DNA from: Campylobacterota bacterium
GTDB lineage: Bacteria > Campylobacterota > Campylobacteria > Campylobacterales > Sulfurovaceae
DNA length: 36,929 nt
Assembly (NCBI GenBank): GCA_011048515.1
Contig: DSDW01000114.1
Coordinates: 1-36,929 of the forward strand
Reading direction: 5' to 3'
The notes below the pieces were generated by a model. That model was not told the DNA's origin. It made no database searches and saw nothing but the letters and a program-made list of their open reading frames with translations. Of this stretch, positions 1,909 to 24,300 are shown one piece after another. The translations under genes and the position numbers were made by a program. Every line of letters begins with the position of its first letter. The stretch's first letter is position 1.

Positions 1909-2066
1909 CTCTATTCAATTTCATCAAAATAGCTGAATTTAAGAATTACGGTGCAATTCTATCACTAGAGTGTCACTGAAATGTCACACTTCTATCGTCA
2001 TAAATAAAAAGAGATAATCGTTGCGAATAAAACCTGGGTTTGACGAAAAAATTTACATATTTTTGC

Positions 2067-2072
2067 TATGAT
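2067..2072 (+). promoter_or_regulatory. Putative -10 box of the histidine kinase gene
   Basis: TATGAT preceded by TTTTTGC fits the style of Campylobacterota sigma-70 promoters, where a T-rich stretch and TGN precede the -10 and a clear -35 is often missing. TTGACG lies 21 bp upstream, too far for a standard -35. The start codon is 24 bp downstream. Confidence 0.45.
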
Positions 2073-2095
2073 TTTCTAAAACAAAGTGAGATTTT

Positions 2096-5000
2096 GTGTA
2101 TTTTTCCCGATTACTCTTATTGGTCCTATTTGCTATATCTACTCTCCTCAATGCACAGACGCAAACACTTGAACATGTTACAGTAAGGCTTGCGTGGAAA
2201 CATCAATTCGAATTTGCAGGTTTTTATGCAGCCAAAGAAAAAGGATTTTATAAAGAAGCCGGCCTGGATGTAGAGATCAAAGAGTATAATCCAGAAATAG
2301 ATACTGTAGAGGAAGTCCTGAATGGAACCTCTACTTATGGACTTTTCTCTTCACAACTTATCCTCAAAAGGCTATCTGGCAAGAAGGTAGTCAATCTTGC
2401 ATCCTACTTCAAACAAAATGCGCTCATACTTATTACAAAACCAGAAATTAAAAGTGTAGACGATTTAAAAGGTAAAAAGGTGATGGCAACTAAAAGTGAA
2501 CTTTCTAACACTAGCCTTGCCACTTTACTTCAAAATCATAATCTAAACCTAAATGATATCCATGTTGTTTCATCTACTTTTGATACAAGTGCTTTTGAAA
2601 AAGGTAAGGTTGATGCAATATCTGCATTTATTTCCAATGAGCCTTTTATACTCGATCAAAAAAATATACCTTACACTATTTTGAACCCTTCGGATGAAGG
2701 TATCTACTCGTACGATCTCGAGCTTTTTACTAGTGAGCATGAAGCTTTTACATATCCATTAAAAACAAAAAAGTTTATTGAAGCTACAAGAAAAGGATGG
2801 GAATATGCACTCTCTCATAAAAAAGAAATTGTTGATCTGATCTATGAAAAATACTCTCAAAAAAAATCCAAAGAAGCACTCCTGTATGAAGCCAAAATAA
2901 CAGAAAAACTCATCAAACCATATCTTTACCACATAGGTGCTGTTGTACCTGAATTGGTACAGTTGAATACCAATATGTATGTTCAGCTCGGTATGGTCAA
3001 TCCCAGCTGGAACCTTGAGGGTTTCATTTTTAATCAAAACTCCCAAAAGATCAACCTGACACCAGAAGAAGTAGCCTTTCTACAAAAACATCCCAAGATC
3101 GTTTTAGGTACAGAAAAAGAGTGGAAACCTTCTGTCATCGTCAATAATGATGGAACAATAAGCGGCTTTGATGCTGATGTACTTAAACTGATCAATAAAG
3201 TAAGTGGTGCAAACTTTACGTTGAAAGCAGGAAAATGGCAAGAGATGGTAGAGCAAGCCAAACAAAAAAAGATCGATGGACTGAGTACCAGTGCTATCCA
3301 CGATGAGAGAAAAGCATACCTGAACTTTTCAGACGTATACACCAGTATGCCAAAAATGCTATTTGTATCAAAAGAAAATCCTAAAAAAATTCATTCGCTT
3401 CATGATCTAAAAGGAAAAACTATTGCCATTCATCAAGGTAACCTATTTGATGAAAAATATGCACGCCAATTTAAATCATCCAAAATTATCAAGTTTGACA
3501 AGCTCAAAGATGTCATAAAAGCGCTTATTACAGGTAAGGCCGATGTAATGATTGGTGATGGCACTACCTTTTACCTGGCAAATGAAATGGGATTACCGTA
3601 CTTAAAACGTATTCACATACTCGACAAAAAACTTGATCTTGTATTTAGTGTCAGGAATGATTGGCCTGAGGCGATCAGTATTATAAATAAATCTTTAGCC
3701 TACATAGACAAAGGTCAATTTATACAATTACAATACAAGTGGTTTGGACAAGACCAAGCAACTGCACTAGATAAAAAATATCAAAAAATTTCACTCACTT
3801 CAGAAGAAAGAGCATACTTAAATGAGAAAAAAAACATCACTATCTGTGTCGATCCGGACTGGTTGCCATTTGAAAAAATCGACAAAGGCAGACATATAGG
3901 CATGAGCGCAGACTATTTCAGGTTGATCTCTTCGAGTATTGGCATGCCGATCACTTTAGTGCCTACAAAAACCTGGAGGGAGTCTCTTGATTACGCGAAA
4001 ACAAGAAAGTGCGATATCCTCTCATTCTCCATGACAAGCCCTTCACGCAAAGCGTATCTCAATTTCACCGATCCCTTCCTGGATATTCCTCTGGTGATCG
4101 CGACAACCTATGATCAGTTTTTTGTTAACGATATCGAAGAGATCAAAGGAAAGAAGATCAGTATCGTAAAAGGATATGCCCTCAAAGAACGACTTCAATC
4201 CAAATACCCCGGGATACACTTCATTGAAGTAGCATCGGTTGAAGAAGGACTTACAAGCGTCATCCGCGGAGAGACTTTCGGATTTCTGGATAATCTCATA
4301 GCAATAGGATACCAGATACAAAAAAACTTTCCAGGCTCTCTGAAGATCTCCGGCAAGTTCGATGAGAAGTGGGAGCTCGGCCTCGGCGTACGCAATGATG
4401 ATCCGACACTGCTTGCTATTATGAACAAAGCTATTGCCTCAATCGATGAAAAAACAAAACAGGAGATTAACAACAGTTGGTTCTCGATCAAATATGAAAA
4501 TGGATTTGACTATATCCTTTTTTGGAAAATACTCACACCCCTCATTCTCATCGCACTCTTTTTGCTGGTGAGACATAGACTATTGCACAGGCATAATACT
4601 CAGCTTAAAAAAGAGGTAGATCAAAAGATAGCAGAGCTTAGACAAAAAGATAAAATACTGCTCCAAAAGCACAGGATGGCTGCCATGGGAGAGGTGCTGA
4701 GTCTTATCGCACACCAATGGAAACAGCCTTTATCAGCGATCAGCAGTACGCTTATGGGGATAAAAATAAAACTGGCAAACGGCAAGTTTAACCTTGAAGA
4801 TCAAGCAGATAGAGAAAAATTTTTATCCTATCTTGAGAAGAAACATGACCGTATCAACCACTATGTAGAATTTCTCTCCGACACAACAGATGAATTTCGA
4901 AACTTTTTCAACCCCAATAAGCATAAAGAGCCGGTTTCCCTGCATGAACCTATCATTAATGCACTACAGATAATGGAGGATTCCATGAAAAACCATGGTA

Positions 5001-5392
5001 TCAAGATTATCAAAGAGCTTCAGGTTGATACAGAGCTTATGCTCTACAAGAATGAGATCATGCAGGTAGTGTTAAACCTTCTTAAAAACAGTGAAGATCA
5101 TTTTCTGGAAAATGCTGTACCTCATCCGGAAATCATCATTACAACATACAGTGACCCGGATCACTATATCCTCTGTATCTGCGATAATGGAGGAGGCATA
5201 CCCCAAACGTATATCAAGCATATTTTCGATCCCTACTTCAGCACCAAACATGAAGATATCGGAACAGGGCTGGGACTTTACATGTCCAAAATGATCATTG
5301 AAGAGCACCATGGCGGCCTGCTCAAAATGTACAACACTGAAGAGGGGGCCTGTTTTGAGATCCTCTTTCCAAAGGAGATATCCCGGGGATAA
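2096..5392 (+). CDS. Sensor histidine kinase with three periplasmic binding-protein-like domains
   Basis: A 1,098-residue membrane sensor kinase. A signal peptide or N-terminal anchor (1-20) is followed by an NMT1/SsuA-like binding domain (about 25-315), then two SBP_bac_3-like domains (about 320-560 and 565-800). These two align with each other: each starts with LT.EE.A.L and carries a R.AYLNF motif, so they are a tandem duplication. One transmembrane helix lies near 806-830, then a short coiled coil. The dimerisation/phosphoacceptor segment is IAHQWKQPL (His about 873). The ATPase domain has an N box (NLLKNSEDH, about 993), DNGGGIP, and GTGLGL (about 1056). There is no receiver, PAS or HAMP domain. 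It starts at GTG, with AGTGAG upstream. The ligands are unknown; amino acids or other small organic solutes are plausible from the domain families. Its probable partner is the response regulator converging on it. Confidence 0.9.
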   Translation: MYFSRLLLLVLFAISTLLNAQTQTLEHVTVRLAWKHQFEFAGFYAAKEKGFYKEAGLDVEIKEYNPEIDTVEEVLNGTSTYGLFSSQLILKRLSGKKVVNLASYFKQNALILITKPEIKSVDDLKGKKVMATKSELSNTSLATLLQNHNLNLNDIHVVSSTFDTSAFEKGKVDAISAFISNEPFILDQKNIPYTILNPSDEGIYSYDLELFTSEHEAFTYPLKTKKFIEATRKGWEYALSHKKEIVDLIYEKYSQKKSKEALLYEAKITEKLIKPYLYHIGAVVPELVQLNTNMYVQLGMVNPSWNLEGFIFNQNSQKINLTPEEVAFLQKHPKIVLGTEKEWKPSVIVNNDGTISGFDADVLKLINKVSGANFTLKAGKWQEMVEQAKQKKIDGLSTSAIHDERKAYLNFSDVYTSMPKMLFVSKENPKKIHSLHDLKGKTIAIHQGNLFDEKYARQFKSSKIIKFDKLKDVIKALITGKADVMIGDGTTFYLANEMGLPYLKRIHILDKKLDLVFSVRNDWPEAISIINKSLAYIDKGQFIQLQYKWFGQDQATALDKKYQKISLTSEERAYLNEKKNITICVDPDWLPFEKIDKGRHIGMSADYFRLISSSIGMPITLVPTKTWRESLDYAKTRKCDILSFSMTSPSRKAYLNFTDPFLDIPLVIATTYDQFFVNDIEEIKGKKISIVKGYALKERLQSKYPGIHFIEVASVEEGLTSVIRGETFGFLDNLIAIGYQIQKNFPGSLKISGKFDEKWELGLGVRNDDPTLLAIMNKAIASIDEKTKQEINNSWFSIKYENGFDYILFWKILTPLILIALFLLVRHRLLHRHNTQLKKEVDQKIAELRQKDKILLQKHRMAAMGEVLSLIAHQWKQPLSAISSTLMGIKIKLANGKFNLEDQADREKFLSYLEKKHDRINHYVEFLSDTTDEFRNFFNPNKHKEPVSLHEPIINALQIMEDSMKNHGIKIIKELQVDTELMLYKNEIMQVVLNLLKNSEDHFLENAVPHPEIIITTYSDPDHYILCICDNGGGIPQTYIKHIFDPYFSTKHEDIGTGLGLYMSKMIIEEHHGGLLKMYNTEEGACFEILFPKEISRG

Positions 5393-14548: not shown

Positions 14549-16405
14549 GTGTCTTTAGCCCTTGCAAGAAAATACCGGCCTGCTACTTTCAGTGATCTTA
14601 TCGGTCAGGAAGCAGTTTCTCAGACCCTCTCTCTTGCACTTGAAGGCAACAGACTCTCCCACGCCTATCTCTTCTCGGGACTCCGCGGAAGCGGGAAGAC
14701 CTCCACCGCACGTATCTTCGCAAAAGCGTTGCTCTGCGAAAAAGGTGCCTCCGCGCATCCGTGCGGGGTCTGCACCCACTGTGTGATGGCCAGTGAGAAC
14801 CGCCATATGGACATCATCGAGATGGATGCTGCAAGCAACCGTGGTATCGATGATATCAAAGATCTCATAGAGCACACCAAGTACAAGCCGAGCTCTGCAC
14901 GTTTCAAGATCTTCATCATCGATGAAGTGCATATGCTGACCAACCAGGCGTTCAATGCCCTGCTTAAAACGCTCGAAGAGCCTCCGGCTTTTGTCAAGTT
15001 CATCCTCGCTACCACAGACCCGTTGAAACTGCCGGCTACGATACTCTCCAGAACCCAGCACTTCAGGTTCAAAAAGATCCCGCAGAACCTTGTCCAGGGG
15101 CATCTTGAGCATATCCTGAACCTTGAGCAGATCGGATTTGAAAAAGAGGCGCTGGATATCATCGCCCGTACGGGGGCGGGAAGCCTGCGAGATTCCCTGA
15201 CACTGCTCGATCAGGCGATCGTTTACTCAAAAAACTATGTGGATGTTCCTACCGTGACCAATATGCTCGGTATTATCGAACCGGGCCTGCTTGAACAACT
15301 GACCCAGGATATCCTCCGTAAAGATGAGAAGAGGGTGTTGGAATTTCTCAAGATCGCATCCGACTATGAAGCGGAAATGATCCTGGATGAGCTGACCCTC
15401 TACCTGAAAGCGCAGCTCCTCTCCAAAAGTACGCTCCTGACTCCGATGATCATCGAACGCTTCTTCAGGATCATAGCCGAATCCAAAGGACTGCTTGCGC
15501 TTGGGAGTGACGGTGAGTTCATCCTGACACTCTCTCTTTTCAAAATGATGGAAGCCCTGCAGATCAAAGAGATCGATACAATGATCCAGGCACTCGAAAA
15601 AGAGATGCAGGGAGTGCAGATCACCATGCCCGCTGCACCTTCAGAAGTATCCGAGGTCGTCACGATCACGGAAGCCGACCTCGCGCCATCAAGCTATAAC
15701 GGGACAGTGGAGACACCTGCAGCATCCATGGTGACTGAGGAGGCAAAGGAAGCGGTAGCGGAAATCAAAGAAAAGATCCCCGAACAGCAGCCAGAAGAAG
15801 CAACGACAGCAGAAGAAACCGGTGACAATCTAGAGGCACAAATCTATACACCTGTCCAGGAAAAGGCCGCGGTATCTGCACCTGATCCTGACCAAAAACG
15901 TTTTGATATCCTGGTCCAGAAGATCTTTGACAGGGATTTTGAACTGGGAATGTGCTTTGAGACCAATATCGAGTTTGAAAGTTTTAAAGAGGGTACGCTT
16001 ACCTGGAGCTCCACAGCCCAGGGTGAAGAGAAAAAACAGCTGATCACCCACTGGGGAGTGATCAACATGTTCGTCAAAGAGCTCTTCGGGTTTGACACGA
16101 AGATTCTCAATATTGCAAAAGAACAGACCCAAAATCCGGAAGAAGAGACAAAAAAAAAATCTAATGAAACAATAGCTTTTTCGCCAGAGGAGAGCATTCA
16201 TCTCTCACCGGAAGAGGAAGAGTGCAACGCCTCAGCATCGATGATTGAAGATATCGAGATGAAAAGCTCATGTATCGCTCCTGAAGCAGGCGATACCGAG
16301 GCGGCAAAAGAGAAAGATCCTTCTTCGCTACTGGAAGAACCGATGATCAAAGCCGCGATTGAATTGTTTAATCCTAAAAAAGTAAGAATTAAACGAAAAT
16401 CATAA
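14549..16405 (+). CDS. dnaX: DNA polymerase III subunit tau/gamma
   Basis: A 618-residue clamp-loader ATPase. The start is the GTG at 14549 (V-SLALARKYRP, the family N-terminus), with GGAG 7 nt upstream; earlier in-frame ATGs lie inside ypfJ on the other strand and lack homology. Walker A is GLRGSGKTS (about residue 44). The zinc-binding cysteines are C..C-type in PCGVCTHC. Walker B/DExx is IIDEVHMLT, and sensor 1 is ATTDPLKLPATILSR. The AAA+ part covers about 1-370, followed by an acidic, Glu-rich linker and a C-terminal region that would be tau-specific. A run of ten A residues at 16150-16159 sits in the linker, with a stop directly behind it in the -1 frame, so a shorter gamma product (about 538 residues) could also be made. 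Confidence 0.95.
   Translation: MSLALARKYRPATFSDLIGQEAVSQTLSLALEGNRLSHAYLFSGLRGSGKTSTARIFAKALLCEKGASAHPCGVCTHCVMASENRHMDIIEMDAASNRGIDDIKDLIEHTKYKPSSARFKIFIIDEVHMLTNQAFNALLKTLEEPPAFVKFILATTDPLKLPATILSRTQHFRFKKIPQNLVQGHLEHILNLEQIGFEKEALDIIARTGAGSLRDSLTLLDQAIVYSKNYVDVPTVTNMLGIIEPGLLEQLTQDILRKDEKRVLEFLKIASDYEAEMILDELTLYLKAQLLSKSTLLTPMIIERFFRIIAESKGLLALGSDGEFILTLSLFKMMEALQIKEIDTMIQALEKEMQGVQITMPAAPSEVSEVVTITEADLAPSSYNGTVETPAASMVTEEAKEAVAEIKEKIPEQQPEEATTAEETGDNLEAQIYTPVQEKAAVSAPDPDQKRFDILVQKIFDRDFELGMCFETNIEFESFKEGTLTWSSTAQGEEKKQLITHWGVINMFVKELFGFDTKILNIAKEQTQNPEEETKKKSNETIAFSPEESIHLSPEEEECNASASMIEDIEMKSSCIAPEAGDTEAAKEKDPSSLLEEPMIKAAIELFNPKKVRIKRKS
16150..16164 (+). promoter_or_regulatory. Candidate slippery A10 tract with -1 frame stop in dnaX
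   Basis: Ten consecutive A residues encode KKK after a Thr codon. A -1 shift (or one extra A in the transcript) reads ATC then TAA at 16162-16164. A +1 shift reads four codons and then TAG. This matches the layout known from Thermus thermophilus dnaX, where slippage on an A-run makes the gamma subunit. A GAGAG/CTCTC hairpin about 30 nt further on might stimulate a ribosomal shift. Confidence 0.55.
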
Positions 16406-22407: not shown

Positions 22408-22450
22408 CTGAACTTAAAAAAAAACTTTCCGAGTACTTTTTTAAGTTCAG
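22408..22450. repeat. 14-bp inverted repeat between dxs and metK
   Basis: CTGAACTTAAAAAA and TTTTTTAAGTTCAG are perfect complements separated by 15 nt. On the minus strand it follows dxs and precedes the metK ribosome site by about 20 nt. A second hairpin (ACACTCC/GGAGTGT, 22456-22472) lies directly after the dxs stop. They may form a tandem terminator or a metK leader structure; no SAM riboswitch signature was recognised. Confidence 0.6.
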
Positions 22451-22479
22451 CGCTTACACTCCGATGGAGTGTTCTGCTG

Positions 22480-24300
22480 CTACCTATCTGTATTTAAATC
22501 TCTATTCACTCTCTGGGCCAATTGCTCAGGCAAAAGTCCAAGACTCTCTTCCACCAGCTTAGTACTGCCATGCGTAATGAAAGCATCATCATACTCAAAA
22601 GTGGTTAACGAAACATCCCTGATACTCTCCTGGCTTAAAAATTCCAGCAACGCAGACCCTACTCCCCCTTTGGCTGCGGAATCGGAGAATACATACCATT
22701 TCTTATAATCAGCGCTGAGTTTTAAAAGCATCTTCTCATCGAGCGGTTTGACAAAACGCAGATCAAGGATACCGATCTTTTGCTCCATCTTCTCGGCAGT
22801 CAGCATTGCTCGCCCCACTCCGTTGCCATACCCGATAAAGAGTATATCTTCACCCTCCTGCAGCATGACAGACTTTCCAAGTTCATACAATTCACAGCTG
22901 CTGTCCGGAGCGAGAAATGCTCCTCTTGGATACCTGAAAGCACAGGGCCGGTGATACGCTTTGGCAAAGGCCATGGCTGCTTTCATACTGCTCTCGTTGT
23001 AAGGCGCAAGCAGGGTCATGTTGGGGATTGCCCTGAGATAACTTACATCAAATGCCCCCTGATGTGTTTCGCCGTCCTCTCCCACGATCCCTGCCCGGTC
23101 AATAGCGAATGCTACGCCAAGATCCATCAGACAGATATCGTGGATGACCTGATCATACCCCCTCTGCAGGAATGTAGAGTAGAGCGTACAGAAAGGCTTG
23201 AATCCCTCTTTCGCCAAAGGCCCCATCGAAGTGACCGCATGCTGCTCTGCGATCGCTACATCCCAAAAACGCTCAGGATACTTTTCCATCGCTGCACTGA
23301 GACCTGTACCGCTCGGCATCGCTGCGGTGACCCCCACGATCTTCTCATCCTCATCAGCCATCTCGAGAAGTGTTTCGCTGTAGATCTGAGTGGCAGATTT
23401 CGCACTGCTCTTCTTGTAGGCTTTCCCTGTCTCAAGATCAAAAGCTCCTACACCGTGCCAGTGCTCTTTGGTCCCCTCAGCGATCTCATACCCTTTTCCC
23501 TTGGTTGTCTGGGCATGAACGATCACCGGTTTTTTCAGTTTTTTGGCTACTTCAAGGGTCTCGATGAGTGTTTCGATATCATGCCCGTCGACAGGCCCGA
23601 TATACTCGATCCCCATCTCTTCAAACATAATTCCCGGAGTGATCAGCTTGAAGGACTCTTCAAAACGCTTCGCCATGTAGGTCGCACCCTCGGGAAGATG
23701 TTCAAGGGCTTTTTCAACCCTCTGTTTGAACTTCTGATAGAAGGACCCTGCCATCGTCTGCGAAAGCAGTTTGCTGATCGCGCCGATCGGTTTGGCGATA
23801 CTCATCTCGTTGTCATTGAGAATGATCACCACAGGGTACTTTCTGTCACCCAATTCATTGAGCGCTTCATAGACCATCCCCGCGCTCATACTTCCGTCAC
23901 CGATAAATGCAACGGGAATACGCTCTTCACCTTTGAGTGCGATCGCTTTTGCCGCACCGACAGCCAGGGAGATGGAAGTAGAACTGTGCCCTGCCACATA
24001 GTAGTCATACGGAGACTCCTTTGGCTTGGTATAGCCGCTGATGCCGCCAAATGTACGCAGTGTATCGAAGCTCTCCCATCGGTCGGTCAGGAGTTTGTGT
24101 GCATAGGCCTGGTGGCTCACATCAAAAATGAAGGGGTCTTTGGTCACATCAAAAACCCTGTGCATTGCGACGATCAGATCTGCCGCACCCATGGTTGAAC
24201 TTAAATGTCCACCGTTACGGCTTACAGTCTGCAGTATCTTCTCTCTGATCTCTTCGGCAAGTGCCTCAAGTTCTTCAATCGAATGCTCTTTGATATTCAT
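22480..24300 (-). CDS. dxs: 1-deoxy-D-xylulose-5-phosphate synthase
   Basis: A 606-residue thiamine-diphosphate enzyme condensing pyruvate with glyceraldehyde 3-phosphate, the first step of the MEP isoprenoid pathway. Seen are VSHQAYAHKLLTDR, the ThDP motif GDGSMSAGMVYEALNE, and the transketolase-like DRAGIVGEDGETHQG. The length is slightly under the E. coli enzyme (620). The ATG is 1 bp after the stop of the small upstream gene, indicating coupling. A 472-codon open frame on the opposite strand is a shadow. Confidence 0.97.
   Translation of the reverse strand: MNIKEHSIEELEALAEEIREKILQTVSRNGGHLSSTMGAADLIVAMHRVFDVTKDPFIFDVSHQAYAHKLLTDRWESFDTLRTFGGISGYTKPKESPYDYYVAGHSSTSISLAVGAAKAIALKGEERIPVAFIGDGSMSAGMVYEALNELGDRKYPVVIILNDNEMSIAKPIGAISKLLSQTMAGSFYQKFKQRVEKALEHLPEGATYMAKRFEESFKLITPGIMFEEMGIEYIGPVDGHDIETLIETLEVAKKLKKPVIVHAQTTKGKGYEIAEGTKEHWHGVGAFDLETGKAYKKSSAKSATQIYSETLLEMADEDEKIVGVTAAMPSGTGLSAAMEKYPERFWDVAIAEQHAVTSMGPLAKEGFKPFCTLYSTFLQRGYDQVIHDICLMDLGVAFAIDRAGIVGEDGETHQGAFDVSYLRAIPNMTLLAPYNESSMKAAMAFAKAYHRPCAFRYPRGAFLAPDSSCELYELGKSVMLQEGEDILFIGYGNGVGRAMLTAEKMEQKIGILDLRFVKPLDEKMLLKLSADYKKWYVFSDSAAKGGVGSALLEFLSQESIRDVSLTTFEYDDAFITHGSTKLVEESLGLLPEQLAQRVNRDLNTDR

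Follow-up and report, generated by a model that had tools for sequence, protein, structure and literature searches.

How many bacteria need a short form of DnaX is an unsettled question: according to a 2012 review, the dnaX gene of most bacteria is without a frameshift signature, and these bacteria may produce no gamma (PMC3290774). A run of ten A residues within the dnaX gene of a Campylobacterota bacterium bears on this question and raises a narrower one, namely whether this gene specifies two proteins and, if so, by what means. The gene lies in a 36,929-nucleotide stretch of contig DSDW01000114.1, which we refer to as the window. Its relevant features are as follows.

14,549..16,405, plus strand: dnaX, DNA polymerase III gamma/tau, an ORF with a GTG start and a TAA stop that encodes the tau form of 618 aa
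14,603..15,232, plus strand: AAA+ ATPase and lid, residues 19-228 (Pfam)
15,887..16,117, plus strand: conserved C-terminal domain with a predicted KH-like fold, residues 447-523, retained in the predicted short product (AlphaFold)
16,150..16,159, plus strand: A10 slippery tract in the codons for residues 534-537 (sequence)
16,162..16,164, plus strand: TAA stop reached in the -1 frame after a gain of one A or a loss of two, predicted product 537-538 aa
16,173..16,175, plus strand: TAG stop reached in the +1 frame after a loss of one A or a gain of two, predicted product 541-542 aa
16,241..16,402, plus strand: C-terminal tail, residues 565-618, near-invariant in the genus and present in the full-length product only

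The ORF was identified as dnaX by Pfam matches at residues 19-177 and 182-228 (DNA_pol3_delta2 and DNAX_ATPase_lid) and by the NCBIfam model PRK08451.1 (E 1.7e-217). Its tract consists of exactly ten A residues and is read in frame (GAG ACA AAA AAA AAA TCT AAT GAA). Beyond the tract, the -1 frame reads ATC TAA and stops one codon on, while the +1 frame reads CTA ATG AAA CAA TAG and stops four codons on. The original prediction, that both other frames are closed at once behind an A10 in dnaX, was correct in its coordinates and in both codon counts. It had also placed the tract at the boundary between the AAA+ module and the tau-specific part; that placement does not hold, because the AAA+/lid region extends only to about residue 228 and the clamp-loader part is conserved only to about residue 360, whereas the tract encodes residues 534-537.

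The tract instead lies 86% of the way along the gene (relative position 0.864, with a range of 0.81-0.88 in the genus), in a variable linker that is preceded by the KH-like C-terminal domain and followed by a 54-residue tail. Identity across linker residues 531-560 is 0.2-0.4, between the conserved domain at 447-523 and the near-invariant tail at 565-618. The domain was modelled by AlphaFold with a pLDDT of ~95, and its closest structural match was domain I of DnaA (Z 9.4, rmsd 2.6 over 79 residues), with a Foldseek E-value of 0.013 that is weak. Domain V of E. coli tau was not among the structural matches listed, which says nothing either way. A Pfam search with the tail returned no family. 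Its sequence in the genus is SMIEDIEMKSSCIAPEAG-TEAAKEKDP--LLEEPMIK-AIELF-PKKVRIKR, and its final helix-strand motif was found again in other families across much of the order; the tail is probably a docking motif for some partner.

Genome-level rarity of such runs was assessed by whole-genome pattern counts, together with inspection of 20 sites in relatives. The A10 at 16,150-16,159 is the sole A10 or T10 in the 2,076,485-base genome. Relatives mostly contain just a few, and 11 of the 20 inspected sites, all of them A10 or T10 runs other than those in dnaX, lay outside any ORF of at least 60 codons. To place the dnaX tract in its genus we assembled 50 complete dnaX genes from 49 genomes (one assembly contributed two) and four fragments that cover the region. 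An in-frame A9 or A10 was present in the same linker in 46 of these 54 genes (42 complete genes and all four fragments), a count that, like the stop counts below, is taken over related and thus non-independent sequences. The run, whose conservation in close relatives the original prediction had proposed to examine, was therefore mostly conserved, yet not in every close relative, as 8 of the 54 genes of the genus have no tract of nine or more A. Outside the genus, in-frame A9 or A10 occurred in 4 of 7 dnaX genes of the family and, beyond the family, in 6 of 61 genes of the order, spread over five other families. All counted linker tracts were 9 or 10 A in length and never longer. Many of the genomes are fragmented assemblies, and the tract is present too in single-contig genomes (for example G015, G023 and G050). 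Since the A10 is unique in its genome, the gene has a G+C content of 49%, and the same linker carries A9 or A10 in 46 of 54 genes, the run exceeds what chance would place there.

The one assembly with two complete copies, G043, contains two different full dnaX genes (L013 and L034) with an A9 tract in each, for which a mixed bin is the simplest explanation. Two further observations concern other parts of the window. At 22,410-22,455, the minus-strand gene at 22,480-24,300 is followed by an inverted repeat (CTGAACTTAAAAAA...TTTTTTAAGTTCAG) that contains an intergenic A9 and looks like an ordinary terminator. At 2,096-5,392, an ORF of 1098 aa combines NMT1/THI5-like, SBP_bac_3 and histidine-kinase ATPase domains. 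G+C at positions 2,001-4,000 is 35.5%, versus 43-52% across most of the window, and this ORF in low-G+C DNA was possibly acquired from elsewhere.

The stops that flank the tract were compared with a null in which the downstream codons were redrawn synonymously in 1000 simulations. Both other frames stopped within eight codons in 38 of the 42 complete tract-bearing genes of the genus, compared to 24% of positions in the same genes. The synonymous null predicted 11.6 of 42, and a value of 38 was reached in none of the 1000 simulations. When the set was thinned to less than 75% identity, the excess persisted (9 of 12 versus 3.0 expected; 0 of 1000), and it was seen again in ten tract-bearing genes from outside the genus (7 versus 2.7 expected; reached in 2 of 1000). 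Close +1 stops considered alone were also in excess in the whole set of 42 (29 versus 17.2 expected), an excess that was gone under the hardest thinning (5 of 12 versus 4.05 expected). Slippage that both inserts and deletes A residues would require stops in both frames.

We consider it probable that the A10 in dnaX is a programmed slippage site of the Thermus type, at which transcriptional slippage would give rise to both tau and a tail-less form. RNA polymerase would slip on the A run and generate mRNAs with varying numbers of A. Transcripts with 10 plus or minus 3n A would encode tau (617-619 aa, ~69 kDa), and every other A count would lead to a stop within a few codons, yielding a tail-less DnaX of 537-542 aa (~60 kDa). 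This short form would retain the ATPase, the collar and the KH-like domain, and would lack the conserved tail; it should therefore still assemble into clamp loaders and load clamps, without the contact that the tail makes. The likeness to Thermus slippage that the original prediction had drawn is well supported by the conservation of the tract, the frequency of both-frame stops beyond the synonymous null, the relocation of the tract described below, the lack of detectable ribosomal-frameshift stimulators, and a relative position like that in Thermus. The accompanying claim that slippage yields gamma fared less well: the comparison supports a shorter DnaX, but because the KH-like domain is kept and only the last 81 encoded residues are lost, the product would be a tail-less tau and not an E. 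coli-style gamma.

The same short form could be made from a uniform mRNA if ribosomes slipped, either by a -1 shift on A_AAA_AAA or by sliding on the lysine codons. Every tract contains an in-frame A_AAA_AAA, the -1 stop lies no more than four codons away in 36 of 42 genes, ribosomes are known to slide on A runs (PMC4363877), and a mixed mechanism is possible. However, A_AAA_AAG, which is far more shift-prone in E. coli (PMC5009743), is one base change away and never used: the window reads ACA AAA AAA AAA TCT, and AAA codons likewise make up the tracts in the genus. Nor did we detect stimulators of ribosomal frameshifting in the 42 genes of the genus. An upstream Shine-Dalgarno-like motif occurred in 1 of the 42 versus 6.2 expected and is absent in the window; downstream RNA structure had a mean z of -0.19 across the 42 genes and -0.83 in the window; and an Rfam search of dnaX returned no frameshift element, the matches being sub-threshold and unrelated. 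In addition, -1 frameshifting does not depend on close +1 stops. In an E. coli cell-free system, sliding of ribosomes becomes robust at A11 and is slight on A9 or A10 (PMC4363877), and the linker tracts do not exceed ten A. Bacterial RNA polymerase does slip on A runs of such length (PMC1088944, PMC6260861). Because no E. coli-type signal was detected and the tracts have 9-10 A, a length at which bacterial RNA polymerase slips and E. coli ribosomes slide little, we regard ribosomal slippage as an unlikely source of the short form; together these points favour transcription, with a ribosomal share possible.

It is more doubtful still that the tract has no programmed use, in which case KKK would matter to the protein or persist as a neutral remnant, and the stops would only limit the damage from occasional slips. 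Several lineages have lost the tract, and any slippery site would benefit from off-frame stops close by. Yet a single AAG codon would cure harmful slips, and the lysines of the tract are always encoded by AAA, whereas AAA encodes 77% of the lysines in the rest of the gene; the surveyed dnaX genes have nine further KKK sites, and AAG is present in every one. The all-AAA run has moreover been re-created elsewhere. The usual site, NIAKKK, has given way to NIAKEQ and similar forms in the window and in the three relatives nearest to it, with a new A10 ~10 codons further downstream. A protein-level need for KKK is contradicted both by this codon choice and by the relocation of the tract. The A10, as noted, occurs nowhere else in the genome. 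Since the linker is otherwise poorly conserved, its tract lysines are all AAA, and the tract was relocated yet retained, selection appears to act on the nucleotide run itself. Finally, phase variation at the DNA level, in which slipped-strand mispairing at the A run would toggle the C-terminal tail between cells in the manner of the repeat-tract switching known in Campylobacter jejuni (cited in PMC1088944), is extremely improbable, as no out-of-frame allele occurs among the 42 complete genes of the genus that carry the tract, flanking codons compensate between A9 and A10 versions, and a core replication subunit such as the dnaX product is an unlikely target for such switching.

Transcriptional slippage at dnaX has precedents with which the present case can be compared. 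In Thermus thermophilus it occurs on an A9 (Larsen 2000, as reported in PMC1088944 and PMC4320859) that lies at seven-eighths of the gene (PMC1088944) and is followed by stops at 2 and 16 codons (PMC4320859). The two genes are alike in that tau is a single ORF with an in-frame A run about seven-eighths along, stops are nearby in both other frames, and the short product would be without its C-terminal end. They differ in tract length (A9 in Thermus versus A10 here and A9 or A10 in relatives) and in the distances to the stops, which are 1 and 4 codons here. The two tracts have no known common origin. In Thermus, heterogeneous mRNA and two proteins have been demonstrated, whereas here the two proteins, the slippage, its transcriptional level, the ratio of the forms and the role of the tail are inferred from the comparison of sequences.

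E. coli dnaX likewise specifies a long and a short DnaX from one gene, with a stop just behind the shift site. There, however, the short form results when ribosomes shift to the -1 frame at A_AAA_AAG, stimulated by a Shine-Dalgarno element and a stem-loop; that shift site is absent here, and we detected no such stimulators. The Campylobacterota site also lies far behind domain III, both other frames are stopped, and the short form would retain the KH-like domain. A third arrangement, a two-ORF dnaX with a poly-A tract, is described for 12 genera, including Chlorobium and Chloroherpeton, in Antonov 2013 (PMC3711429), which proposes transcriptional slippage there as well. In those genes slippage is needed for tau, whereas here tau is one open frame and slippage would produce the short form. 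We found no description of dnaX slippage in Campylobacterota among open-access papers, although the supplement of Antonov 2013 may include an entry from this phylum. The type of mechanism is already known from Thermus, and within the open-access literature the Campylobacterota case is apparently new.

On a tree of 118 dnaX genes, the tract required at least 12 gains or losses versus 38.5 in shuffles, and several of the losses fell within the genus. The six tract-bearing genes from five other families of the order (L064, L101, L106, L107, L116 and L118) have their A9 or A10 in the same dnaX linker, with stops soon after it in both frames in most cases; their nearest sampled relatives are without a tract, and these tracts apparently represent repeated gains. 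Because 8 of 54 genes of the genus have no tract, some species can do without the short form, which, if made, would be useful yet not indispensable. We tentatively suggest, at somewhat less than even confidence, that the Campylobacterota dnaX tract is an evolutionarily mobile switch, one that is kept, shifted within the linker, lost and regained as the surrounding protein changes, and that would make a tail-less tau, still with its KH-like domain and thus distinct from classical gamma.

We also surveyed 80 dnaX genes for comparison, the majority of them from other phyla. In dnaX of a deltaproteobacterium (L135), an alphaproteobacterium (L159), a proteobacterium (L163), a Fibrobacter (L173) and a Planctomycetaceae genome (L198), a run of 9-12 A is followed closely by stops in both frames. 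Judging from such genes, slippage in dnaX may occur far more widely than has been described.

Selection has maintained the tract across a large genus, while some of its species have lost it and other families have it again; this distribution provides natural test pairs. Such pairs could show the purpose of the short form, and they direct attention to the 54-residue tail, which is indicated as the regulated part.
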